The translations under genes and the position numbers were made by a program. A stretch of 64,000 nucleotides of DNA, taken from NCBI RefSeq assembly GCF_041154675.1, contig NZ_AP031322.1, positions 62,001-126,000 of the forward strand, read 5' to 3'. Origin of the DNA: Sulfurisphaera javensis. GTDB lineage: Archaea > Thermoproteota > Thermoprotei_A > Sulfolobales > Sulfolobaceae. The notes under the pieces are model-generated. The model saw nothing but the letters and a program-made list of their open reading frames with translations. It was not told the DNA's origin and did no database searches. This document shows positions 6,715 to 23,340 of the stretch, one piece after another. Positions within the stretch are counted from its first letter, which is position 1; every line of letters starts with the position of its first letter.

Positions 6715-7829
6715 AAGTTGCGATAGTTGGAGGAGGAATTGTAGGCTTATTTACTGCATATTATCTTTTGAGAGAAGGTGCAGAAGTAACAGTATTTGAA
6801 AAGGACTTTTTAGGAAGTGGTTCAATTCATGCTGCTGGGCTAATAGAACCATATAGGTTTGATAAAATTAACACTACTGGAATGATAATAAAGATGTTAA
6901 AATATATGACTAAGAGAGTTACAGTAGTTAAAAGCTTAAACAAAGCTTGGGTAATAGAACTACTAAAGAATATTAATAAAGAACCACCAGAAGAAGCTTG
7001 GAATATAATGAGAGAAATGGCTCAATTCTCTTTGAAGGAATACAAGAGACTTGCAGAAGAGAAAAATGACTTTGATTATGAAGAGTCTGGTTTACTTGAG
7101 ATTTATTCTGACAAAAACGAATTAGAAAAAGCATTAGTAGAAGAAAGACGAAGTCCTTTTAAGCCAAAAATTGAAGTTGCAGAAATTGAAGGCTTTGCTG
7201 GGGCTATATATTTCCCAGAGCTTTCAAAAGTTGATACTCATAAATTTATAGATAGGATGAGTAAAGAAATTGAAAAGGCAAAAGTAGTTAATGCTGAAGT
7301 AACAAAAGTAACTAAAGACGGAAAAGTGTTTTATTCTTCTAATGAAGAGAAATTTGACAAGGTAGTTTTATCAGCTGGGATTTGGTTAAAAGAAATTGGC
7401 TTACCAATTACTGCATTTAAAGGTTATGGATATAGAGTAAAGGGGGAAGTAAAAGTAAAATATCCATCAGTTTTAGCTGAATTAGGAGTTGCAATTGTGA
7501 AAAATTCTGATTTCATAAAAATTACTGGAGGATTTGATGGTGATTTTTCAAACGACTCTTCAAGGGCTGAACTTTTCCTTTCTTTCTCTAAGTCCATTGT
7601 AAACATTAATTACGTTTATGATCTTTACATGGGTTATAGACCATGCTCTCCAGATGGTTTTCCAGTAATTGGTAAAGTAGAAAACGTTGTTATTTCTACC
7701 GGAGCTTGTAGATTAGGTTGGAGTTATGGTCCAGCAATGGGTAAAACTACTTCTGACCTAGTTTTAGATAGAATTAATAGTGTTGGTTATCTTTCTCGAT
7801 TTATAAATGGAAGAAATTTAAGCCTTTGA
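6711..7829 (+). CDS. FAD-dependent amine/amino-acid oxidoreductase (DAO family)
   Basis: 372 residues. The N-terminus has the dinucleotide-binding fold VAIVGGGIVGLFTAYYLLRE followed by the acidic FEKD. Later come LSAGIWLKEIGLP and the C-terminal FAD contact region PCSPDGFPVIGKVENVVISTG. This is the D-amino-acid oxidase / glycine oxidase / sarcosine dehydrogenase superfamily. The substrate is unknown. Adjacency to a ThiS-like protein recalls ThiO of thiamine synthesis, but Sulfolobales are thought to use Thi4, so this is only a possibility. The start is TTG at 6711, overlapping the upstream stop. No signal peptide; cytoplasmic or membrane-associated. Confidence 0.85.
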   Translation: MKVAIVGGGIVGLFTAYYLLREGAEVTVFEKDFLGSGSIHAAGLIEPYRFDKINTTGMIIKMLKYMTKRVTVVKSLNKAWVIELLKNINKEPPEEAWNIMREMAQFSLKEYKRLAEEKNDFDYEESGLLEIYSDKNELEKALVEERRSPFKPKIEVAEIEGFAGAIYFPELSKVDTHKFIDRMSKEIEKAKVVNAEVTKVTKDGKVFYSSNEEKFDKVVLSAGIWLKEIGLPITAFKGYGYRVKGEVKVKYPSVLAELGVAIVKNSDFIKITGGFDGDFSNDSSRAELFLSFSKSIVNINYVYDLYMGYRPCSPDGFPVIGKVENVVISTGACRLGWSYGPAMGKTTSDLVLDRINSVGYLSRFINGRNLSL

Positions 7830-7845
7830 GTAATATCTAATTCAT

Positions 7846-8367
7846 ATGACTATAGTTAAATCCGAAGTAATTCGTAAGCTAATGGATGCTAAGAAATTTC
7901 TTTTAGATGGTTATATAGATGAAGGAGTTAAAATCGTCCTTCAAATCGTAAACTCATCACCAAAGAGTGACTACAACTGGTTCATATGCAACATCATAGA
8001 GAGTATTGATTGTAAGTATATGTTTCAAATATTAGATAAAATTGGAAGTTATTTTGACCTTGACAAGTGCCAAAACTTAAAGAGCGTTGTTCAGTGTGGC
8101 ATTGAAAACAACACTTTGAATGATCACGTAAGTAAGGCTTTAGACCTACTAGTATCTCAAGGAAAGAGAGATAAATTAGAAGAAATAAGTAAAGAGATAT
8201 TAAATAAAGATCAAGTAAGCCCAGCGTTATTAATAGCTTTAGCAAATGCTTTAAGGAAAGTGGGTGATGAAAGAGATGCCACAAATCTATTGTTAGAAGC
8301 TTGCAAGAAAGGAGATAAGGAAGCTTGTAATTCAGTTAATGCAATAACTGTTAGAAGCGTTATGTGA
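7846..8367 (+). CDS. Helical, Cys-containing protein, TPR-like, unknown
   Basis: 173 residues, all helical. Repeated A/L-rich helix pairs resemble tetratricopeptide repeats (LLIALANALRKVGDERDA). Six or more cysteines are scattered through the chain (CNII, CKYM, CQN, CGIE, CKKG, CNS), which is many for a thermophile and suggests disulfides or metal binding. It lies 16 bases after the FAD oxidoreductase on the same strand and overlaps the converging gene at its 3' end by 8 bases. No function known. Confidence 0.6.
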   Translation: MTIVKSEVIRKLMDAKKFLLDGYIDEGVKIVLQIVNSSPKSDYNWFICNIIESIDCKYMFQILDKIGSYFDLDKCQNLKSVVQCGIENNTLNDHVSKALDLLVSQGKRDKLEEISKEILNKDQVSPALLIALANALRKVGDERDATNLLLEACKKGDKEACNSVNAITVRSVM

Positions 8368-8713
8368 GATATTCAACGTTTAACTTTATCCCCACTCTCT
8401 TTTCTATCTCATATATCTTTACGCTTATTTCCTCATACACTTCTGGTCTTAACGTTTCAACCTTTATCTTTACATTATTTCCATTAATTTCAAAATATAT
8501 TCCAGATATTGAAGAAAGCTCCTCTTTTATTAGCTCTGCAACAGAAAAAACTCTCACATCCTTTATTTCCACTTTATTATATACAAAAACATTTATCTCT
8601 TTTCTTATTCTATCACCTTCAAGTTTTATTAAATTATCTTTTAATTTCTCTTTTAATTCTAAAAATTTTCTAGCTACTTCCTCATCAAATGGATTATTAT
8701 AAAGTTCTATCAT
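8360..8713 (-). CDS. Unknown small protein, third gene of the bax1 unit
   Basis: 117 residues, soluble, with a long charged helix near the N-terminus (EVARKFLELKEKLKDNLIKL) followed by a strand-rich part (INVFVYNKVEI, GIYFEINGNNVKIKVETL). No recognised motif. Its ATG overlaps the stop of the preceding gene by 4 bases, so it is coupled to it and to bax1 upstream. Confidence 0.6.
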   Translation of the reverse strand: MIELYNNPFDEEVARKFLELKEKLKDNLIKLEGDRIRKEINVFVYNKVEIKDVRVFSVAELIKEELSSISGIYFEINGNNVKIKVETLRPEVYEEISVKIYEIEKRVGIKLNVEYLT

Positions 8714-8976
8714 ACAACTCTTTTCAATGAACCCTTATATTTTTCCATGTATGATTTATATGCATTCTTTTCCATCAAAAGAATTGTTACATTTATAGAA
8801 TCAGTATGTTTATATATCTCATCAAGAACTTGAGTAACAATTCTCGCATTAGTTCTACAATCAGTGTCAGTAATTCCAATTAGATAGTAGCTACCATCAT
8901 CGTCAACGTAAGCTTCAACTTCTCCTTTAATTAATTCTGATAATTTCTTAGCTCCAGCTATAATTGCATCATTCAT
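8710..8976 (-). CDS. Unknown small protein downstream of bax1
   Basis: 88 residues, alpha/beta, acidic N-terminal half (EVEAYVDDDGSYYLIGITD), then a helix and INVTILLMEKNAY. It starts 3 bases after the bax1 stop and overlaps the next gene by 4 bases, so the three genes form one unit. Family not recognised. A role together with the Bax1 nuclease is inferred only from position. Confidence 0.6.
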   Translation of the reverse strand: MNDAIIAGAKKLSELIKGEVEAYVDDDGSYYLIGITDTDCRTNARIVTQVLDEIYKHTDSINVTILLMEKNAYKSYMEKYKGSLKRVV

Positions 8977-8979
8977 AAT

Positions 8980-10425
8980 TTAATTTATTTTTTCGTCCTT
9001 TATAACTATTGCGTCTGATATTCCAATCCATTTTAACTTATAACCTAAGTACTCTAACACCTCCACAATGTAATCCCCATATTTAAACCTTAACTCGTTT
9101 AGGCTCTTATTGTTAAAATCTTCTTTTTTCAGTTTTTCCAAGATCTCATTTTTTACGTAATAATTCTTAAGGAAAATATAGCCTGGAAATGTTTTCAAAT
9201 TTCTTCGTATTATTTCAACTGGAAGAGAAAGCTCTTTTGCAATGTCATTTAGACTTATTATTTCACCAGAAATTGTATAATCAACTTTAACGTTTTCCAG
9301 ATACTTTTCCTCTAATTGTTTTAGCCACTTGTAAACTTGCGATATGTCAACTTTCCTCTTGTAAGTTATCACATTCATTCCACTAAATTTCTCTTTACCT
9401 AGTTCTTCGTTGAGTAAAACGAGAATTGGATCCTTAACCTTTTTCAATTTTTCTAATTTTTCTTTTATATACTCTTTAGTCCAAAAGCCTACAATTTCTA
9501 TATATACTCTCAAATTTCCTTTTTCTACTAAAAAATCTGGTATAAACACTTTATTATCTACTATCAAAGGTTCAGGTTCCCTAACTATCTTCCAACCCTT
9601 TGCCACATTAACAAAGTCCTTGTAAAATTTCTCCTCAACATTACTATCAAATCTTTTCTCGTCTATTATTAACTCTTTCATTTCTTTAAAGTTAGAAAGA
9701 CTTAACTTGTAAATCCTCTTAACTTTCTTTCCTAGAACTAACTCTGCCTCAATCTTCCAATTTTGTGAGGAAACAATAAAAGGTAAAAGGACAGCTAAAT
9801 TCCTTCCATATTTTTCAGTAAGTTTAACAAGCGTAGCTGGACCTAAGAACTCAAATCTTAAAGGTTTATCATAAGCAAAATACATTAAGCCTAACCATTT
9901 AGCCCTCCTTATAATTTCTTTCCAGTTCGAAGATACATAAACTGTCATTTTGTAAGCTTTAAAAAGTAAAGTCTGTAAAAGAGAAAGGTTATACCATTTA
10001 ATTAAATCCTCTGGAGTGATAATTGGAGCTTTAATAATTTTCTTTTCCTCATCTAGATCTGAAAAGACATACCTCATTACGTCAACTCCTAACTCCTTAC
10101 TTACCTTCTGAACTATTTCCTCCCTTTCTTTTTCATCTATAATTGGCCCATATTTGAATAACTCTCTTCTTATTTCTATTGGTGGAATATGAGAGTCTGC
10201 CTCAAATTCACATAATCTAGTTAACAATTTCACAAATCCACGAACTAACTTGTGATCATAAATTTTCTCTAAATAATCTGTTTCCTCCTCAATTTCTCCT
10301 AATTTCTTTCCAGTCTTAAAAAGGGAGATTATTTCATTTGCTAAGTCTAAATCTTCTTTAGTAGCAAAGCTTGGTATTACCTCATTCTTAATTATCGTAA
10401 ATCTGGCTAATTCCCAAGGTAACAC
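8980..10425 (-). CDS. bax1: Bax1, XPB-associated nuclease (DUF790)
   Basis: About 481 residues. Bax1 is the archaeal structure-specific endonuclease that binds the XPB helicase and cuts DNA in a nucleotide-excision-repair-like reaction. The chain has the family features: an N-terminal domain starting LPWELARFTIIKNEVIPSF, a nuclease core with IPDFLVEKGNLRVYIEIVGF (the D...E-x-x-G restriction-like motif, around residues 300-320), and a C-terminal DNA-binding part. The start is taken at the GTG at 10425, just before the conserved LPWEL. The frame stays open to 10479, but that would overlap xpb. It is transcribed away from xpb with a 31-bp gap; two small unknown genes follow it. Confidence 0.85.
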   Translation of the reverse strand: MLPWELARFTIIKNEVIPSFATKEDLDLANEIISLFKTGKKLGEIEEETDYLEKIYDHKLVRGFVKLLTRLCEFEADSHIPPIEIRRELFKYGPIIDEKEREEIVQKVSKELGVDVMRYVFSDLDEEKKIIKAPIITPEDLIKWYNLSLLQTLLFKAYKMTVYVSSNWKEIIRRAKWLGLMYFAYDKPLRFEFLGPATLVKLTEKYGRNLAVLLPFIVSSQNWKIEAELVLGKKVKRIYKLSLSNFKEMKELIIDEKRFDSNVEEKFYKDFVNVAKGWKIVREPEPLIVDNKVFIPDFLVEKGNLRVYIEIVGFWTKEYIKEKLEKLKKVKDPILVLLNEELGKEKFSGMNVITYKRKVDISQVYKWLKQLEEKYLENVKVDYTISGEIISLNDIAKELSLPVEIIRRNLKTFPGYIFLKNYYVKNEILEKLKKEDFNNKSLNELRFKYGDYIVEVLEYLGYKLKWIGISDAIVIKDEKIN

Positions 10426-10456
10426 ATAAATTATATGTAAATGAAATATTAAAAGT
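10426..10456. promoter_or_regulatory. Divergent bax1/xpb promoter
   Basis: The 31 bases between the two start codons are almost pure A/T. TATA-like words lie about 25-30 bases before each start (around 10428-10436 for xpb; around 10448-10454 on the other strand for bax1). The two core promoters therefore overlap and both transcripts would be leaderless. Co-regulation by mutual exclusion is possible; inference. Confidence 0.5.
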
Positions 10457-11776
10457 ATGGTATATTTAAGATACTTCAAAGGATTAATATTATCTGATGC
10501 TTTTGCACCTGGAATGAAGTGGAGTGATGAATTAAAAGCTTACACTTCTTTAGCTTATAAATATAGAGAAATAAGGAAATATTTTTTAGATAAAGGAGTT
10601 CAATTAGAGGAGAACGTTATAGATGCTTTACCATTTCCTTTGATAAAAGATAAAATTCAACTTAGGGATTACCAAGAAGAAGCGATAAAAGCTTGGATGA
10701 AGGAAAAAAGAGGCATAATAGTTTTACCAACTGGTGCTGGAAAGACTCAAGTTGCTTTAAAGATAATTTCGTTATTGAGAGTTTCAACACTCATTATAGT
10801 ACCTACGATTGACTTGATTAACCAATGGAGAGAAAGAATTGAAAAATACCTTGGTATTTCCCCCGGAGTAATAGGAGGGGGAGAGGATTCCTTGAAAGGA
10901 ATTACTGTGATAACTTATGACTCAGCATATATTAGGGCTGAAGAATTAGGTAACAAATTTATTCTGTTAATCTTTGATGAGGTTCACCACTTACCTTCAG
11001 AAGGGTATTCAACTATGGCACAACTTTTTGCATCTCCTTATAGACTAGGATTAACCGCTACGCCAGAAAGAGATGATGGCAAACATGAACTTTACCCAAT
11101 ACTCGTAGGTCCAGTAGTTTATAGGAAAAACTTTGAGGAATTGGCTGGAAAGTATATAGCTAAATTTAGGATACAAAAAATTTACGTATCTTTAACAGAT
11201 GAGGAGAAACAAAAATATAAAGAACTTAGGAAAAAATTAAAAGATTATCTTGATTCTAGAGGATTAAAGTTACAAAGCTTAGATGACTTCCATAAATTAG
11301 TTAAACTAGCTGCTAAAGATAAAGAGGCAAGAGAGGCATTATTAGCGTGGCACGAATCATTAAATATAGCAGTAAACTCCGTCTCTAAGATTGAAAAATT
11401 AAGAGAAATTTTAAACGAATTCAAGGATGAAAAGATCATAATATTTACGAGAGATACACAAATGGCTTATGAAATATCTAGAAGATTTTTAATACCAGTA
11501 GTTACCTACAAGACAAATAAGGATGAAAGAGAAGAAATCTTACAAAAGTTTAGAGATAATATATATAGAGTTATTGTAGCTTCTACGGTTTTCGACGAAG
11601 GAGTAGATGTTCCAGATGCATCATTAGCCGTAGTTTTGGGTGGATATGGAACTAAAAGACAATTTCTACAAAGATTAGGAAGAATATTAAGAAAAAAGGA
11701 GAAAGAAGCTTTAATGATAGAAATAGTAACTAAAGGTACAGCTGATTATCGATTAAGTAAGAAAAGAAGAGAATAA
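10457..11776 (+). CDS. xpb: XPB helicase (archaeal XPB-II type)
   Basis: A 439-residue superfamily 2 helicase/ATPase, the archaeal counterpart of eukaryotic TFIIH subunit XPB, which unwinds damaged DNA and works with Bax1. Motifs in order: LRDYQEEAI, Walker A PTGAGKT (about residues 91-97), DEVHH (about 174), LTATPERDDG containing the RED-like motif, IIFTRDTQ, ASTVFDEGVDVPDA and QFLQRLGRILRK. A long charged insertion after the RED region corresponds to the thumb. It lacks the large N-terminal extension of eukaryotic XPB. The neighbouring bax1 supports the XPB-II assignment. Confidence 0.93.
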   Translation: MVYLRYFKGLILSDAFAPGMKWSDELKAYTSLAYKYREIRKYFLDKGVQLEENVIDALPFPLIKDKIQLRDYQEEAIKAWMKEKRGIIVLPTGAGKTQVALKIISLLRVSTLIIVPTIDLINQWRERIEKYLGISPGVIGGGEDSLKGITVITYDSAYIRAEELGNKFILLIFDEVHHLPSEGYSTMAQLFASPYRLGLTATPERDDGKHELYPILVGPVVYRKNFEELAGKYIAKFRIQKIYVSLTDEEKQKYKELRKKLKDYLDSRGLKLQSLDDFHKLVKLAAKDKEAREALLAWHESLNIAVNSVSKIEKLREILNEFKDEKIIIFTRDTQMAYEISRRFLIPVVTYKTNKDEREEILQKFRDNIYRVIVASTVFDEGVDVPDASLAVVLGGYGTKRQFLQRLGRILRKKEKEALMIEIVTKGTADYRLSKKRRE

Positions 11777-17095: not shown

Positions 17096-17248
17096 TGCAA
17101 AACTTAATAGTTAGGTGTCAAATTTAAGCTTTAATTATTACTTTTTAAAATTTTTTAAAATAGATGTTATTTTTGTCATTAAAGATTCGTGGTAGTAGCA
17201 TTAAAAGTACTTTTTCTCACTCAGAAATTTAATGGTTTAATCAACAAG

Positions 17249-17797
17249 ATGCATATGCCAGTAATAATATTTCTTATAATAATCGCGTTAGCCCTCTCTC
17301 ATGCTCTTGAGCCAGATCATATAGTCACTATGAGATTAATGAAAAGTAAAAAGGAATATGCTATGTTTGGATTATCTCATGGTATAGGTTTCGCTATTAT
17401 AGCCATTCCATTAGTCTTAATTCTCTCTTTTTTTCCTTTCTTGGAAATTGTAGGAGATCTAATAGGACTAGCTTTTGCATTAATCCTTCTTTACTCAGAA
17501 ATCATTGGTAAAGAGATCGAACTTAATGTATCTAAGAGTTTTGGTTCTGGGATATTGCAAGGTGCTTTTGCAATTACTCCATCAAAAATCGTGGTTGCTA
17601 TATTAGCTTCTGAGGTAGGCTTACTATTAGGCTCTCTTTATGTCTTTACCTTTGTAGTAATTTCTTCATTAGCAATCTTTCTAGTTGGTTTTTCACTTTC
17701 CTATTTAAACTTAAAGAAGGATATAAGTAGAATAGTCAATATCTGCATTGCGTTAGTTGCAACTATTTATATCCTTTTTAGTATACTAAAATTATGA
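17249..17797 (+). CDS. NiCoT/UreH-like nickel-cobalt transporter
   Basis: About 182 residues with six membrane helices. The first helix contains SHALEPDHI, the H-x-x-x-x-D-H metal-selectivity motif of nickel/cobalt permeases (NiCoT, RcnA, UreH). A second helix has a His (GLSHGIGF). The ATG at 17249 is preferred because the motif-bearing helix follows at once and a TATA-like AAATTTAATGG lies before it. A GTG at 17189 would add 20 residues. The next gene overlaps its stop by 4 bases (ATGA). Together with the nearby Opp/Dpp/Nik-like ABC genes this suggests a metal or metallophore theme; inference. Confidence 0.7.
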   Translation: MHMPVIIFLIIIALALSHALEPDHIVTMRLMKSKKEYAMFGLSHGIGFAIIAIPLVLILSFFPFLEIVGDLIGLAFALILLYSEIIGKEIELNVSKSFGSGILQGAFAITPSKIVVAILASEVGLLLGSLYVFTFVVISSLAIFLVGFSLSYLNLKKDISRIVNICIALVATIYILFSILKL

Positions 17798-18165
17798 GCT
17801 CAATAGAAATAGTTTACGAGCCTTATAAAAAAATTATAGTCCATGAGATAATCGAATTTTCTTTTGAAGATCTAATATCTGAAGTTCTAATGCAAACTAG
17901 AGCATTAGGAGGAACTTCGATACCAACAATAAATTGGTGCGAAGGAATAGCATTTATAGCAACTCCTTTCCCACCAACTGAAGATATAGTAAGAGAAATG
18001 TTAGCTGGAAATATACATTATGCTGGAGTTATATTTGCAAGAAAAGATTCTTTTGAACCAGAGATAAGAGGAAGTTTCGGAGTTATAAGATTAGTTAATA
18101 GGTGTAACAATCCTAATTATAAAAAACTAGCTGAATATTTAAAATCATTTTCTAGGCGAATATAA
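17794..18165 (+). CDS. Unknown small protein coupled to the NiCoT-like gene
   Basis: 123 residues, soluble, with a conserved-looking core (LGGTSIPTINWCEGIAFIAT) and two cysteines. No family recognised. Its start overlaps the NiCoT-like stop by 4 bases, so it is translationally coupled and may help metal uptake or delivery. Its 3' end overlaps the converging ABC gene by 21 bases. Confidence 0.6.
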   Translation: MSSIEIVYEPYKKIIVHEIIEFSFEDLISEVLMQTRALGGTSIPTINWCEGIAFIATPFPPTEDIVREMLAGNIHYAGVIFARKDSFEPEIRGSFGVIRLVNRCNNPNYKKLAEYLKSFSRRI

Positions 18166-18942
18166 CCAGCAAAAAACCTCATTTTGATTTATAATTGCCC
18201 TTGGAGGAAACAAAGAAACGCATATCCTAAATAGTTTCCTATCTTTTTTTACAAATTCACAATAGTCATGAAAAGGACAGCCTCTTAATGAAGGTTCTCC
18301 AACATAACTTACCTCAACTCTTTCATTATTTTTCCCAATAGAAAGAATTGATTTTTTCAAAGTCATAGAGTATGGATGATAAAATTCTTTACTTTTAATT
18401 GAATATTCTAATAACTTCCCTCCATAAATGACATAAACCCTCTCACATACATCAATAAATTCCATATTACTAAAGAAGAAAAGTACTGCAAAATCTAACA
18501 AATTAGCTGTTTTAATTATTAATTTTATAGCTTGACTTTTAAGCTGTTCCTCAAACGTTTCCATGAAATTTTCAACTAGAAGTAACTTTGTCTTACCAAA
18601 TGCAACTTGTGATAATTCAAGCTTAAATTTTTCAAATTCAGTTAAATCAGTAACTTTTCTTTTTTTATCTAAACCAAGAAAATTCAAGATAAACTCATTT
18701 CTTTTGCCAAACTTTTTCTCATATAAACTTAGAACCTCTGATACTGAGAGAGGAACGTTTATTCTATATTTAGGGATAATCCTAATATATCTACAGTTTA
18801 TTTTCCTTAATATAAGTTCCTCTATTTCATCCTTATCCTTCCCAGAATTTCCTACTATGCAACTTATCTTGTTTATCTCTAAGTCTATATTAGAAATATA
18901 ATTACCATGAAGATTAGAAATTACCAAGGGTAACCTAGACAT
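18145..18942 (-). CDS. Opp/Dpp-type ABC ATPase subunit (F-like) with lost catalytic motifs
   Basis: 265 residues. The overall layout is that of DppF/OppF, including the C-terminal oligopeptide-ABC tail (HPYSMTL, then cysteines in LRGCPFHDYCEF). However, every ATPase motif is altered: Walker A reads GNSGKDKDE instead of GxxGxGKS/T, the signature helix reads LTEFEKFKLELSQ instead of LSGGQ, Walker B reads LLLVENF instead of a D-E pair, and the switch His is Asn (FFSNME). It should bind ATP poorly and not hydrolyse it. Overlaps the upstream ATPase gene by 22 bases. Fourth gene of a right-to-left operon. Confidence 0.75.
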   Translation of the reverse strand: MSRLPLVISNLHGNYISNIDLEINKISCIVGNSGKDKDEIEELILRKINCRYIRIIPKYRINVPLSVSEVLSLYEKKFGKRNEFILNFLGLDKKRKVTDLTEFEKFKLELSQVAFGKTKLLLVENFMETFEEQLKSQAIKLIIKTANLLDFAVLFFFSNMEFIDVCERVYVIYGGKLLEYSIKSKEFYHPYSMTLKKSILSIGKNNERVEVSYVGEPSLRGCPFHDYCEFVKKDRKLFRICVSLFPPRAIINQNEVFCWLYSPRK

Positions 18943-19760
18943 TTTACATACCTCTCTCCAAGATTAACCATTTTTGGTTTTGTGAGTCTGCACTTATAAG
19001 TAGAATATTTACAATTTTTACTATAAATGCAACCTTCTCCTACAAGGTTCTCCTCCTTTAAATTTCCCTCAATTAAGTCAATAGTATAAGGATGATAAGG
19101 ATATTCTATTACATGATAACCTTCTTCTACAACTTCTCCACGATATAACACTGCAATATAATCTGCTAATCTTGAAATAACTGCAGGATCATTATCAAAA
19201 ACAATTAGATTTATATCAAAAGTTTCTTTCAAATCTATTATACTATTAACAAGGAGTCCTATCTCTATCTCATTCAAGTTATATTCAATATCGTCTATAA
19301 ATAAGTATTCTGGCTCTAGGAATGAGGCTAAAGCCAAAGCAACTTTCTTTAATTCCAATGACCTTAGTTGATGAGGATAACTGTAAAGGATTTCTTCCCT
19401 TATATTTAATACTTTAAATACTTCCTTTGCTGTTTCAAGTATTAATTCCTCATTTTCCATATCATGACTGATTCCGATTTCAATAAAGTGAGAAGCTATA
19501 TCGTAAATTGGATTAAATAATTTCATTGGATCATAAAATACTACTGACAATTTTTCCCAATACAATTTGTCACCCTTACTCATTATATCTACATCATCGA
19601 GCAGGATTTTGCCAGAAGCTTTTGTTAACTTAAAAGTAGCGTTGATTACTTCTTCTTTACCACTATCTCTTTGTCCTAATATTCCAGTATCTTCCTTTAT
19701 CTCTAGTGTGAAACAATTTAATTTACCTTCTACGGTAAGGCATTCGTATTTTAGAGTCAT
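18921..19760 (-). CDS. Opp/Dpp-type ABC ATPase subunit (D-like) with lost catalytic motifs
   Basis: 279 residues, DppD/OppD-like, with the typical tail (HPYTIDLIEGNL and a Cys cluster CIYSKNCKYSTYKC). Walker A is GQRDSGKEE: the Lys is kept, but Ser/Thr is replaced by Glu. The signature reads HQLRSLELKKVALA in place of H-x-L-S-G-G-x. Walker B YLFIDDIEY has no clear Asp-Glu-Pro, and the switch His is replaced (VFDNDP). Base composition and frame look healthy, so this is a conserved but catalytically altered protein rather than a pseudogene. Third gene of the operon; it begins directly at the end of the DppC-like gene. Confidence 0.75.
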   Translation of the reverse strand: MTLKYECLTVEGKLNCFTLEIKEDTGILGQRDSGKEEVINATFKLTKASGKILLDDVDIMSKGDKLYWEKLSVVFYDPMKLFNPIYDIASHFIEIGISHDMENEELILETAKEVFKVLNIREEILYSYPHQLRSLELKKVALALASFLEPEYLFIDDIEYNLNEIEIGLLVNSIIDLKETFDINLIVFDNDPAVISRLADYIAVLYRGEVVEEGYHVIEYPYHPYTIDLIEGNLKEENLVGEGCIYSKNCKYSTYKCRLTKPKMVNLGERYVKCLGYPW

Positions 19761-20531
19761 TTAAATTCTCCTCATTTCATCTGCTAATAATTGAAGAAGA
19801 ATAAGCAAAATTCCTCTAAATATTGCAGGAATTAAAAACAACCACCAATCTGGAATTAGATGTGATGCTGTATTTAATAAAGTAGTTAAAGTAGGATAAT
19901 TTGGATCTCCAACACCTCCAATAACTCCCATAGCTGTATAAGTTGATATTCCGTCAATAGCTGAAGGAATAACTAACTGAAAAACTTGCTTCTTACCTAA
20001 AACAATAAAGCCCAATTTTAAAGGAACTTTTCTAATCATTACTCTTAAAGAGGAACCTATAGACCTTGTGTAAATCGTTTCAGCTATTTGCCTAGCATAA
20101 AGTGGCCAACCAGTTAAAGCAACAATTATTGCAGTTATAAAGAAATTGGCTTTTAACGAAACTCCAGTTGGAATACCATAAAATAAAGCAATAGAAAGGA
20201 GAAATGGTAATCTTGGAATTGAGTTTATTGAATCGGAAATTCTAACCATTAATGTTCTAATTTTCCCTCCTAATATTCCTGCAGTTATACCATAGGTAAC
20301 TGAAATTAAAGTTTCTATTAACCCTACTATGCTTCCGAACAGTAGAGTATTAATTATTGCTACCGCATTAACGTTTATCATATTTCTCCCATCAATGTAA
20401 GTTCCTAGAGGATAAGCTAAGTTTGGAGGAGTTAAAGGTTTTCCTTTTGGTAATTGATAAAATTCCAAGAAAATACTCGTAAAAATTAGAAAGAAAAATA
20501 AACTTAAAATAATATAAAGTCTTATCATCAT
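19761..20531 (-). CDS. DppC-like ABC permease subunit
   Basis: 256 residues with about six membrane helices. An N-terminal helix is followed by the [11 protein letters not shown] segment (compare LGTDELGRD in DppC), then the ABC-permease loop region around [17 protein letters not shown]. The classical EAA-loop Gly is shifted ([13 protein letters not shown]). It would form the membrane channel with the DppB-like protein. Its start overlaps the dppB-like stop (ATGA). Confidence 0.8.
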
Positions 20532-21760
20532 CTTGTCACCCTAGGATCTAAGATGCCATATATTATATCTGTGAGAAGATTTGAAAGTAAAGCTATTGTA
20601 GAATAAAGTATCATAATTCCTTCTATTACCTTATAATCACCATGTTGAACAGCTATTTTAGCTAGTTCACCTAATCCAGGCCATAAGAAAATGCCTTCAA
20701 CGAGCATTTCAGCTAAAAGCATTTCAATAAACGCTGAGGAAATAGAAGTCAACATTACAACGGTAACATTCCCCAATAAATGCCTATAGATAAGGATATT
20801 CTCCTTTAATCCCTTATAATTTGGAGGTAAATTCTTAACGTTAATTAGTAGTCTATTTGTAAAAATCCCTATATAAGGAAAGAATAACGATATAAGTGGC
20901 ATAAAGAGATAAGAGAATAAGTTACTTTTTGGAACACCATATGGAAATATGTTAAAGAAGAAATGAAAGAGATAAATTATAATAATTGATAAAACCCATG
21001 AAGCTAAGGCTGTCCCTATATATTTCCATTTATCTATTATAGATCTTAATGTCTTATTAGTAATTCCATATATTGATAGAAAAGCACTTAGGTAAACTGT
21101 TAACGCAAATGAAATACCTAGCAATAAAGAAGTATAAGAAAGGGCTGTTAAGACTAAACTAGTAACTGAAATACCAAAATAAGAGCTAATACCTAGATTA
21201 AATGTTAATATTCCCTCAATAGTTTTGAATAAACCTCTGCCATGAAGATACTCAAGAACAATTATTACAGCTATAATAAGACTCATTGAAATAATGAAGC
21301 TTGAAAATCTTTTTAATGAGTATCTATATAGAGATCCACCTACAGCATATCCTTTAGTCAACTCTTCTCCAAGTATGCGTGATTGAAAGAAAAGAGTAGT
21401 ACCTTTAAATCCAATGAATGTTCCGGTTAAAATCAAAAATAGTGAAAAAGGAGAAAGGTAAGCATAAGGTTGCACATAACCAGAAATTATATATACGTAG
21501 TTTGTAGTTTGATTGAAATAATAAGTAGATACATTATGTAGATGTATTGGTTCGTTGTTAAACGTTATAATTGTAGCGTTTGGTGGGCCATAAACTAAAA
21601 CTGACCAGTAATAATTTTGCCAATCGGAAGGAGGAGTTGCAATTTTGCTTACATTATAAGATATAAGATCAATTCTTTCTGATTCAATCGAAATGTATGC
21701 AATTATTAAACCTAATAAAAGAAGTACTATAGAAATGTAAAGTAATTGTAAACTTCTCAC
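20528..21760 (-). CDS. DppB-like ABC permease subunit with N-terminal extension
   Basis: 410 residues, about 80 longer than usual DppB. An N-terminal helix (8-27) is followed by an extracytoplasmic part with N-x-S/T sites (about 28-100) and a second helix; the typical permease core comes after this. The C-terminus is diagnostic: [20 protein letters not shown] and the closing [13 protein letters not shown]. Start codon GTG. First gene of the four-gene operon. No solute-binding protein gene is adjacent, so either one is encoded elsewhere or the extension plays that part. Confidence 0.8.
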
Positions 21761-21867: not shown

Positions 21868-23340
21868 TTAAACATTTAAGTATTTTTCTTTTAAGTATTT
21901 TATAAGATCATATGGATCATAACTCTTCCCAAATGCTTTCCTAAGCAAATCCTTTGGAGAATATATAGCACCATATTTACATAGTTTCTCCTTAAGCCAT
22001 GTTTTCACGTTATCGAAGTCAGCATTTCTAACATTCTCCTTTAAGTCTTTATAACTTGAGTATATCATCCCAGCAACGACATTACCTAAAGTGTAAGTGG
22101 GGAAGTAACCAATAGACCCTTGCGACCAATGAATATCTTGTAAAACTCCTTCACTGTCATTTTTGGGTCTTATTCCCAAATATTTATCCATAAACTCATT
22201 CCATATTTCAGGTAATTCTCCAACTTTTATTTCATCAGACAATAATTTCTTCTCTATTTCATACCTTAAAGCAATATGAAAGTTATAGGTAACTTCATCA
22301 GCGTCAACCCTTATTAGACTTGGCTTAATAGTATTAACATATTTGTAGATTTCCTCTTCATTATATCTTTTCACGAAATCTAAATATTTTATAAGTATAG
22401 GATAAATGACATGTATGAATTCCTTACTTCTTCCTATTATATTTTCCCAAAATCTTGATTGAGATTCATGAATTCCAGTGGATGCTCCCTGAGCTAATGG
22501 TGTCATTTCCAAATTTTTATCTATTAGTAACTCATATGTAGCGTGACCGCTTTCATGAATAACTGAGTATATAGTTTCCTTGAAGTCTTTCCCCTCATAT
22601 CTTGTGGTTATTCTAACATCGTTTCCAGAAATTCTAATAGTGAATGGATGTGCTGAAATATCTAATCTAAAGGAATCCTCTGGCATCCTTAAAATTCGAA
22701 TAATCTCGTTGTTTATTTTTTCCATGTCCTTAACATCATATTCAACTTCTTCAAGTGGGTGAGTTTCTGGAAAATAATTCTTTTCTCTCACCTTTGTGTA
22801 TATATCCTTTAAGTTTGGTAATAATACATTAAAGATAGAATCTCCATCATCAACAGTAAAACCTTCTTCATATAAATCTAAAAGTGCATTATAAGGATGT
22901 TTCTCGTAACCTAAATACTCTGCAACCTTTCTCTCTAAATCAACAATTCTCTCTAAATATGGTTTAAACTTAGAAAAATCAGAGGATTTTTTAGCCTGCC
23001 TCCACACGATCAAAGCTTCTGAAGTAACTTTATCTAGTTCCTTTATGATTTCTATAGGTACTTTTACATAATATTTTATTTCTCGATTTAATACACGTAT
23101 AAATCCTTTTTCCTCATCAGAAAGATTTTCCTTACCTTCATATTTTTGAACTAGATTGTAAAGCTTTAAGTATTGATCCTTGATTAATTCACTAAACGTT
23201 CCAATAACCTCACCTCTTATACTAGCATCAGCAGGAGGCATATACGTTTCTCTATCCCAACCCATTAGACTTAAAGCATAGTTTAAGCTCCAGATCTTTT
23301 TATATTCTTCATAAAGATCCTTTATATTTTCGAATGGCAT
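21868..23340 (-). CDS. Carboxypeptidase Taq (M32 family metallopeptidase)
   Basis: A 490-residue zinc carboxypeptidase that removes C-terminal amino acids from peptides in the cytoplasm. The active-site HExxH is present as HESGH at 262-266, followed by the third-ligand region GIHESQSRFWEN about 30 residues later. Other family stretches are MGWDRETYMPP near the N-terminus, IRVDADEVTYNFHIALRYEIE and DIHWSQGSIGYFPTYTLGN. Full length. It sits next to the Opp/Dpp-like operon (108-base gap, same strand), which would fit peptide use, though the link is inference. Confidence 0.95.
   Translation of the reverse strand: MPFENIKDLYEEYKKIWSLNYALSLMGWDRETYMPPADASIRGEVIGTFSELIKDQYLKLYNLVQKYEGKENLSDEEKGFIRVLNREIKYYVKVPIEIIKELDKVTSEALIVWRQAKKSSDFSKFKPYLERIVDLERKVAEYLGYEKHPYNALLDLYEEGFTVDDGDSIFNVLLPNLKDIYTKVREKNYFPETHPLEEVEYDVKDMEKINNEIIRILRMPEDSFRLDISAHPFTIRISGNDVRITTRYEGKDFKETIYSVIHESGHATYELLIDKNLEMTPLAQGASTGIHESQSRFWENIIGRSKEFIHVIYPILIKYLDFVKRYNEEEIYKYVNTIKPSLIRVDADEVTYNFHIALRYEIEKKLLSDEIKVGELPEIWNEFMDKYLGIRPKNDSEGVLQDIHWSQGSIGYFPTYTLGNVVAGMIYSSYKDLKENVRNADFDNVKTWLKEKLCKYGAIYSPKDLLRKAFGKSYDPYDLIKYLKEKYLNV

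Follow-up and report, generated by a model that had tools for sequence, protein, structure and literature searches.

The B-C-D-F operon and its ATP sites

The window analysed here is the whole 64,000-nucleotide stretch of Sulfurisphaera javensis contig NZ_AP031322.1 (positions 62,001 to 126,000, assembly GCF_041154675.1), and our subject is a minus-strand operon at 18145-21760 of that window that resembles the Opp/Dpp class of ATP-binding cassette (ABC) importers. Its four intact open reading frames (ORFs), here called B, C, D, and F, overlap or abut one another: B and C share 4 nucleotides, C and D abut, and D and F share 22 nucleotides. The original prediction, made from the sequence alone, had likewise described an intact and tightly packed four-gene operon. 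The genes are as follows.

20528-21760, minus strand: B, DppB-like permease gene (410 residues; Pfam BPD_transp_1 at 47.8 bits against a cut-off of 26.4; Opp2B at 2e-24)
19761-20531, minus strand: C, DppC-like permease gene (256 residues; Opp2C at 7e-12; profile matches to Mycobacterium tuberculosis OppC (MtbOppC) at 4e-12 and to E. coli OppC and DppC)
18921-19760, minus strand: D, DppD-like pseudo-ATPase gene (279 residues; ABC_tran at 29.0 bits against a cut-off of 25; NikD at 5e-25, below the NikD cut-off)
18145-18942, minus strand: F, DppF-like pseudo-ATPase gene (265 residues; AlphaFold2 (AF2) model with a predicted local distance difference test score (pLDDT) of 85.8)

The operon is of Opp/Dpp (PepT) descent, as two homologous permeases and two nucleotide-binding domains (NBDs) of the Opp/Dpp family share it. 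The best NCBIfam matches of its proteins were Opp2B, Opp2C, NikD, and OppD, all far under their own cut-offs, and the Pfam scan of C gave no significant match. When ortholog profiles were compared with solved structures, B (4/4) and C (5/5 distinct sequences, E up to 1) matched only Opp/Dpp permeases, and the top matches of D and F were Opp/Dpp ATPases. The AF2 model of F matched Opp/Dpp ATPases from E. coli and M. tuberculosis along its full length, C-terminal tail included, with E. coli DppD and DppF tied (VIA Z 22.9, root-mean-square deviation (rmsd) 2.8, 255 aligned, and VIA Z 22.8). Residues 144-410 of the B model superposed on E. coli DppB with VIA Z 21.7 and rmsd 3.2 over 264 aligned residues.

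When 60 relatives were searched with D, 16 genomes proved to hold a close ortholog (E no higher than 6e-71), and G020 a divergent one. Together these form 17 ortholog sets, with one row per genome for D and for F and with the window's own genome as G000. The positions of the ATP sites are listed below.

19653-19676, minus strand: D, Walker A remnant GQRDSGKE (Lys in 17/17; Ser/Thr replaced by Glu in 16/17)
19533-19535, minus strand: D, Q-loop position, Gln changed to Tyr (Gln in 0/17)
19341-19370, minus strand: D, signature region, LSGGQ replaced (both Gly missing in 17/17)
19290-19307, minus strand: D, Walker B YLFIDD (Asp kept; catalytic Glu is Asp)
19191-19193, minus strand: D, switch-His position (Asn in 16/17, Ser in 1/17)
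18829-18852, minus strand: F, degenerate Walker A (residue comparison of 17 rows)
18619-18648, minus strand: F, degenerate signature (residue comparison of 17 rows)
18568-18585, minus strand: F, degenerate Walker B (Asp to Glu, Glu to Asn)

We scored the catalytic positions in the 17 D and 17 F rows against eight canonical control NBDs, which retained all of them (8/8). The Ser or Thr after the Walker A Lys was present in 0/17 D and 1/17 F rows, the exception being a Ser in F of locus L039. The Q-loop Gln, the signature glycine pair, the catalytic Glu, and the switch His were each found in 0/34 rows. D retained the Walker A Lys in 17/17 rows and the Walker B Asp in 13/17, including the D of the window, and had Asp at the catalytic-Glu position in 17/17. 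F retained the Walker A Lys in 11/17 rows and the Walker B Asp in 0/17, positions that rest on a difficult alignment with three rows gapped in Walker A. A complete catalytic site was found in none of the 17 D and 17 F rows. Judged by these residues, both composite ATP sites are dead, and the class of transporters with one degenerate and one active site does not fit. A functional type I ABC importer has at least one competent ATP site; by the same residues, this complex has none. We consider it very probable that its own subunits do not hydrolyze ATP.

The catalytic motifs had been predicted to be changed in both ATPases. This holds for the Ser/Thr, the signature, the catalytic Glu, and the switch His, but not for the Walker B Asp, which the window's D keeps. 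The comparison adds that D keeps the Walker A Lys throughout and that both ATPases have lost the Q-loop Gln.

One reading of these residues is a nucleotide-sensing gate, in which D, and perhaps F, would bind nucleotide through the Walker A Lys without hydrolysis and thereby open or close the B-C pore. The D site has conserved residues of its own (Lys35 in 17/17, Glu36 in 16/17, and Asp157 in 17/17), which suggests a site that was re-shaped rather than one that is drifting. However, the Q-loop Gln, both signature glycines, and the switch His are gone in 17/17, the F site has no invariant residue, and the N-terminal region that carries the canonical A-loop aromatic is shorter in D and F by eye. 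A gate of this kind is therefore unlikely. Elsewhere in D, 7 of the 21 core invariants fall downstream of the Q-loop position, in residues 77-99 (p 0.002, with the range chosen post hoc).

Distribution and selection across Sulfolobaceae

B, C, D, and F were found together in 17/17 loci when the loci were read. A C profile gave E values of 5.5e-99 or lower in 17 of 31 Sulfolobaceae genomes, with the following match at 2.3e-15; the carriers span 5 of the 11 genera of the family. Among 398 genomes sampled across the phylum, 20 belong to the family, and the C marker was present in 0 of the 378 others, where the best match was at 2.2e-24. A tblastn search of plasmids with C matched 153 records, all below 60% identity, the 20 listed being at 26-36%.

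We read seven of the eight best-scoring C loci outside the family, leaving out the sixth (G345), and found ordinary ATPases where these were readable. Six of the seven encode two NBDs each, and in the seventh (L065) the contig ends before any NBD. The motif GxxxxGK[ST] was present in 12/12 of these NBDs, 11 of them clear, as the match in the second NBD of L064 fell near the N-terminus. LSGG was present in 10/12, with the second NBDs of L069 and L070 as exceptions.

Two loci within the family depart from the common pattern. In L039 (G029, 8469-11050), F has stayed conserved despite its inversion relative to B-C-D, and co-transcription is therefore not an absolute requirement. In L050 (G020, 7308-10900), the whole operon is strongly diverged, equally dead, and has the four cysteines described below. 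In a tree, every D row fell into one clade and every F row into a second, the divergent G020 copy included, although long branches (degL050_F and degL050_D) make the placement of that copy less sure than its support value.

Ratios of nonsynonymous to synonymous substitution (dN/dS) were calculated by NG86 for the four genes in six genome pairs.

G001-G003: B 0.084, C 0.120, D 0 (no amino-acid change), F 0.153
G001-G002: B 0.091, C 0.172, D 0.082, F 0.074
G002-G003: B 0.116, C 0.145, D 0.085, F 0.070
G006-G015: B 0.124, C 0.079, D 0.098, F 0.280
G014-G021: B 0.033, C 0.047, D 0.035, F 0.056 (dS 1.4-1.9)
G025-G023: B 0.034, C 0.044, D 0.028, F 0.056 (dS 1.4-1.9)

For comparison, the six canonical NBDs of pair G001-G002 gave 0.017-0.132. 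Low dN/dS and separate D and F clades together argue that the dead state of both ATPases is old and maintained under selection. Decaying pseudogenes would account for the many motif losses and for F being the least conserved of the four genes (identity 0.67 against 0.74-0.80 between G000 and G001, and dN/dS 0.28 in one pair). Yet the ORF sets are intact in 17/17 genomes across five genera, dN/dS is well below 1 in 6/6 pairs, and the four tail cysteines are invariant. We reject simple decay because the motif losses are common to 17/17 sets and dN/dS is low in 6/6 pairs, leaving it scarcely credible. The original prediction, which had asked for orthologs and dN/dS, was right that these do not look like decaying pseudogenes.

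Permeases, binding protein, and cysteine tails

The permeases had been described as normal, which proved incorrect: beyond the missing Pfam match of C, the EAA motif is gone in both B and C, and the scoop of B is apparently deleted. The features concerned are as follows.

20780-20854, minus strand: B, degenerate EAA/coupling region, residues 303-327 (pattern in 12/12 canonical B and 0/17 family B; KGL and RH remnants kept)
19962-20087, minus strand: C, region with the EAA motif lost, residues 149-190, variable in sequence (pattern in 12/12 canonical C)
21167-21244, minus strand: B, short link between transmembrane helices 1 and 2 (TM1-TM2), residues 173-198 (site of the scoop motif in canonical DppB)
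21332-21760, minus strand: B, extra N-terminal part, residues 1-143, a helix, an outer beta-rich domain, and a helix (AF2 pLDDT 87-94 over residues 11-120)
21473-21679, minus strand: B, outer beta-rich domain, residues 28-96 (invariant A41, P43, W52, P60, Y88, Y90, and G94)

The EAA pattern occurred in 1/17 family C proteins, and there outside the EAA region. A functional type I ABC importer has EAA/coupling sequences in both permeases, and by this scoring the complex has them in neither.

These losses bear on two ways in which ATP could still power transport. An importer with non-standard catalytic residues would fit the Walker A Lys of D, its Walker B Asp in 13/17 rows, and the Asp that M. 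tuberculosis OppD has at the catalytic-Glu site as deposited. It is contradicted by the joint loss of the signature, Q-loop, switch His, and coupling sequences, and we give it next to no credence. Alternatively, the complex could use a canonical ATPase pair belonging to one of the three complete Opp/Dpp systems in the genome. Importers are known to share ATPases, and the genome encodes six canonical oligo_HPY ATPases. Nonetheless, another ATPase driving the channel is disfavoured because the docking sequences of the permeases are lost and because 17/17 loci retain the dead D and F together with B and C; the clustering of D invariants in residues 77-99 also speaks against it. Borrowing is thus very unlikely. 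Of the two branches that had been offered for the ATPase pair, the first is supported as far as it takes the pair to be non-hydrolyzing, and the one in which another ATPase drives the channel is disfavoured.

In E. coli DppB, residues 32-62 form a scoop that enters the cleft of DppA, according to passages of PMC12136057. The profile alignment of B has 7 positions at the scoop against 36 in OppB, although the TM1 piece of that alignment is not significant. In the AF2 model, helix 144-172 of B superposes on canonical TM1, leaving a short TM1-TM2 link, and the scoop of B appears deleted. The extra outer segment foreseen for DppB is present, and in the model it is N-terminal, before the helix that lies on canonical TM1. 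Dpp/Opp B chains in the eight best structural rows align only from residue 144-153 of the model onward. Five models of B ranged in mean pLDDT from 79.6 to 50.0, and the best is confident in the N-terminal part. The Pfam scan of the outer domain gave no match.

The permease fold persists in B and C, and the C invariants include GVGDPxxPTLTT. Family-specific residues, defined as those in at least 16/17 family rows and at most 1/12 canonical rows, occur in hydrophobic context at E170, H266, and E380 of B and at E73, R107, D193, and R239 of C. Conserved buried ionizable residues numbered 13 (9+4) in 523 columns against 17 (10+7) in 836 columns of a canonical control (2.5% against 2.0% per column), the control being 19 orthologs of one system that are longer and less diverged. 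This count gives no clear support for proton coupling, which we do not claim.

When the 31 family genomes were searched with SBP_bac_5, none of the matches listed for the 17 operon carriers fell on the operon's contig at less than 60 kb from it, one weak G005 match being unplaced. The nearest of the matches listed were at about 64 kb (G005), 75 kb (G014), 76 kb (G000), and 92 kb (G019); those in the other operon genomes are farther off or on other contigs. At about 76 kb in the window's own genome, the nearest match agrees with the prediction that no solute-binding protein is adjacent. In that genome, four genes matched SBP_bac_5, three of them beside the three canonical ATPase pairs. The fourth, at 2.503 Mb (L054, 6718-8553) and away from those pairs, was considered as a partner and set aside, as its distribution is unlike that of the operon. 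Its orthologs at 72-74% identity are confined to G016, G007, and G019, and of these three genomes G019 alone carries the operon; three further orthologs at 53-68% (G008, G004, and G028) contain a stop. A 655-668-residue gene adjoining F in a Metallosphaera-group locus and in an Aramenus locus was also rejected as a binding protein, since by eye the two sequences look like Hel308-like helicases.

D and F retain the C-terminal cysteine-rich tail, as had been predicted.

18939-19031, minus strand: D, four-Cys tail C244, C250, C257, and C274 (gaps 5-6-16; invariant in 17/17)
18169-18279, minus strand: F, four-Cys tail C222, C228, C241, and C258 (gaps 5-12-16; invariant in 17/17)
18370-18378, minus strand: F, HPY motif, residues 189-191 (invariant in 17/17)

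The oligo_HPY tail with four cysteines is recognizable by its residues (17/17 in both D and F) but not by its Pfam score, which is sub-threshold in D and F (23.2 and 15.0 against a cut-off of 27.1). In D the cysteines are spaced 5-6-16 or 5-6-15 in 16 rows, with 4-6-10 in L050_D; in F, 15 rows have 5-12-16 and the other two 5-10-16. In E. coli, the [4Fe-4S] cysteines are 284/290/297/315 of DppD (5-6-17) and 293/299/306/323 of DppF (5-6-16), and changing them to Ser in either protein, or oxidation, disrupts the complex (PMC12136057). All 12 invariant columns of F fall in the last 87 of its 265 residues (hypergeometric p 9e-7, with the range chosen post hoc), whereas the D tail is not enriched in invariants (7/28, p 0.38). 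The D counterpart of the HPY motif is HP, which is strongly maintained.

A possible role outside the ABC transport cycle

With somewhat better than even confidence, we interpret the four proteins as a Dpp/Opp-derived complex outside the ABC transport cycle, whose ATPases would be iron-sulfur (Fe-S) scaffolds of an ATP-independent conduit or receptor. We propose this because selection appears to hold the pore of B and C, one face of D (the stretch after the Q-loop position), and the putative cluster ligands of D and F with their HPY or HP. In passages of PMC12136057, E. coli DppBCDF hydrolyzes ATP only with DppA; since the E. coli ATPase needs its binding protein, the joint loss of a linked binding protein, coupling, and catalysis reads as a single exit from the cycle. 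D and F would be pseudo-ATPases that still carry [4Fe-4S] clusters and form a structural, possibly redox-sensitive, floor keeping B and C together. B and C would then conduct a small solute independently of ATP or bind it as a ligand receptor, and the outer domain of B could replace the binding protein as a lid or recognition element. The scaffold role of D and F is likely in our judgment, while the choice of a conduit over a pure receptor is evenly balanced. Whether it acts as gate, channel, or receptor is a matter on which we infer rather than observe.

Several points weigh against this interpretation. A binding protein may be encoded away from the operon. The Walker A Lys in all D and in 11/17 F may permit nucleotide binding without hydrolysis, and because M. 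tuberculosis OppD reads DD at the catalytic-Glu position as deposited (8j5s; wild type may differ), Asp at this position alone is no proof of death. The EAA/coupling patterns were derived from the same 12 canonical controls on which they were scored. MAFFT differs from the structural superposition in aligning the first helix of B with canonical TM1, so the outer domain could be an enlarged scoop. The [4Fe-4S] occupancy of D and F is deduced from their cysteines, F departs from E. coli DppF in its middle gap (12, or 10 in two rows, where DppF has 6), and the spacing in L050_D is 4-6-10. Lastly, G014-G021 and G025-G023, 2 of the 6 dN/dS pairs, are near saturation in dS.

The conserved outer domain of B also fits a receptor or signaling complex without transport, in which this domain would be the sensor for a metal or ligand, with the Fe-S pseudo-ATPases passing the signal inward. 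The lack of an energy source speaks for it too, as does the redox lability of the E. coli Dpp clusters (passages of PMC12136057). The permease fold and many invariants kept in B and C argue otherwise, as does the lack of any output domain among the features seen, making this quite improbable. A more specific form of the ATP-independent complex would be an ATP-free device of thermoacidophiles, either a redox-gated channel clamped by Fe-S clusters or a gradient-driven carrier, in which a large inward proton gradient could replace ATP. We regard this as speculative and rather doubtful. The family-specific residues of B and C would be the first candidates here, though their total is not clearly above the canonical control.

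E. coli DppABCDF (PDB 8z1v-8z1z; passages of PMC12136057) has the same B-C-D-F plan, and the tail cysteines of the archaeal proteins match its [4Fe-4S] ligands. It differs in having working ATP sites, coupling helices, a scoop, and DppA, which are absent or not found in the archaeal complex, and its DppB is without the extra N-terminal part. M. tuberculosis OppABCD (PDB 8j5q-8j5t) was the top profile match of D (3e-54) and C (4e-12), and its OppD also has an Fe-S domain, but it has fused NBDs with signature and switch His as well as a substrate-binding protein. Thermoanaerobacter DppD (PDB 4fwi), the top sequence-profile match of F (1e-17; VIA Z 22.4), has the cysteine tail, although unlike F it has ordinary ATP-site residues in the aligned chain. 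Heterodimeric ABC transporters such as MsRv1273c/72c have also lost catalytic residues in a transporter that is kept, but there the impairment affects one of two sites rather than both (PMC12038006). Among the literature matches listed (open-licence text), we found no description of a Dpp complex with both ATPases dead. The solitary energy-coupling factor (ECF) S-component BioY is part of an ATP-driven importer and is thought to work without its ATPases; BioY has no NBDs at all, whereas the archaeal complex retains dead ones.

What defines an ABC transporter is its ATPases. In a conserved family whose importer has two dead ATPases and has lost coupling and the link to a binding protein, yet retains the pore and the Fe-S-type clamps, the structural role of the NBD is separated in nature from its role as a motor. 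Such a family would allow tests of whether an ABC pore can function without ATP and of what the iron-sulfur domains of Opp/Dpp systems do besides assembly, a question left for further work by the E. coli authors in the passages of PMC12136057 cited here. Annotations of "peptide ABC transporter permease" in Sulfolobaceae may cover a complex outside the ABC cycle. In passages of PMC12529230, msed_1382 / STK_16490 is listed as an ordinary peptide permease next to a von Willebrand factor A (VWA) gene, and synteny suggests that this is the B gene. The same passages report a chromatin immunoprecipitation (ChIP) peak of Metallosphaera sedula AbfR1 in the intergenic region between msed_1382 (permease) and msed_1383 (VWA). 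We found a divergent B/VWA order in four Metallosphaera-group loci (L040-L043, with VWA read by eye in one), and the resemblance of the peak site to this order hints at regulation. A link to sulfur oxidation was dropped, as the "peptide:nickel transport system" named among sulfur-responsive genes in passages of PMC11323534 could not be tied to the B-C-D-F locus.

The operon is flanked by three further genes.

17189-17797, plus strand: 202-residue membrane protein with a HALEPDH stretch like NicO/RcnA nickel-cobalt exporters by eye; Pfam scan without match
17794-18165, plus strand: 123-residue protein without significant family, at 90-92% identity in three same-genus genomes
21868-23340, minus strand: M32 carboxypeptidase

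The gene for the 123-residue protein is convergent with F and overlaps its 3' end by 21 nucleotides. In the four g1 genomes, the M32 carboxypeptidase gene immediately precedes the operon and is transcribed in the same direction; in the two g9 loci it lies some kb off on the opposite strand.

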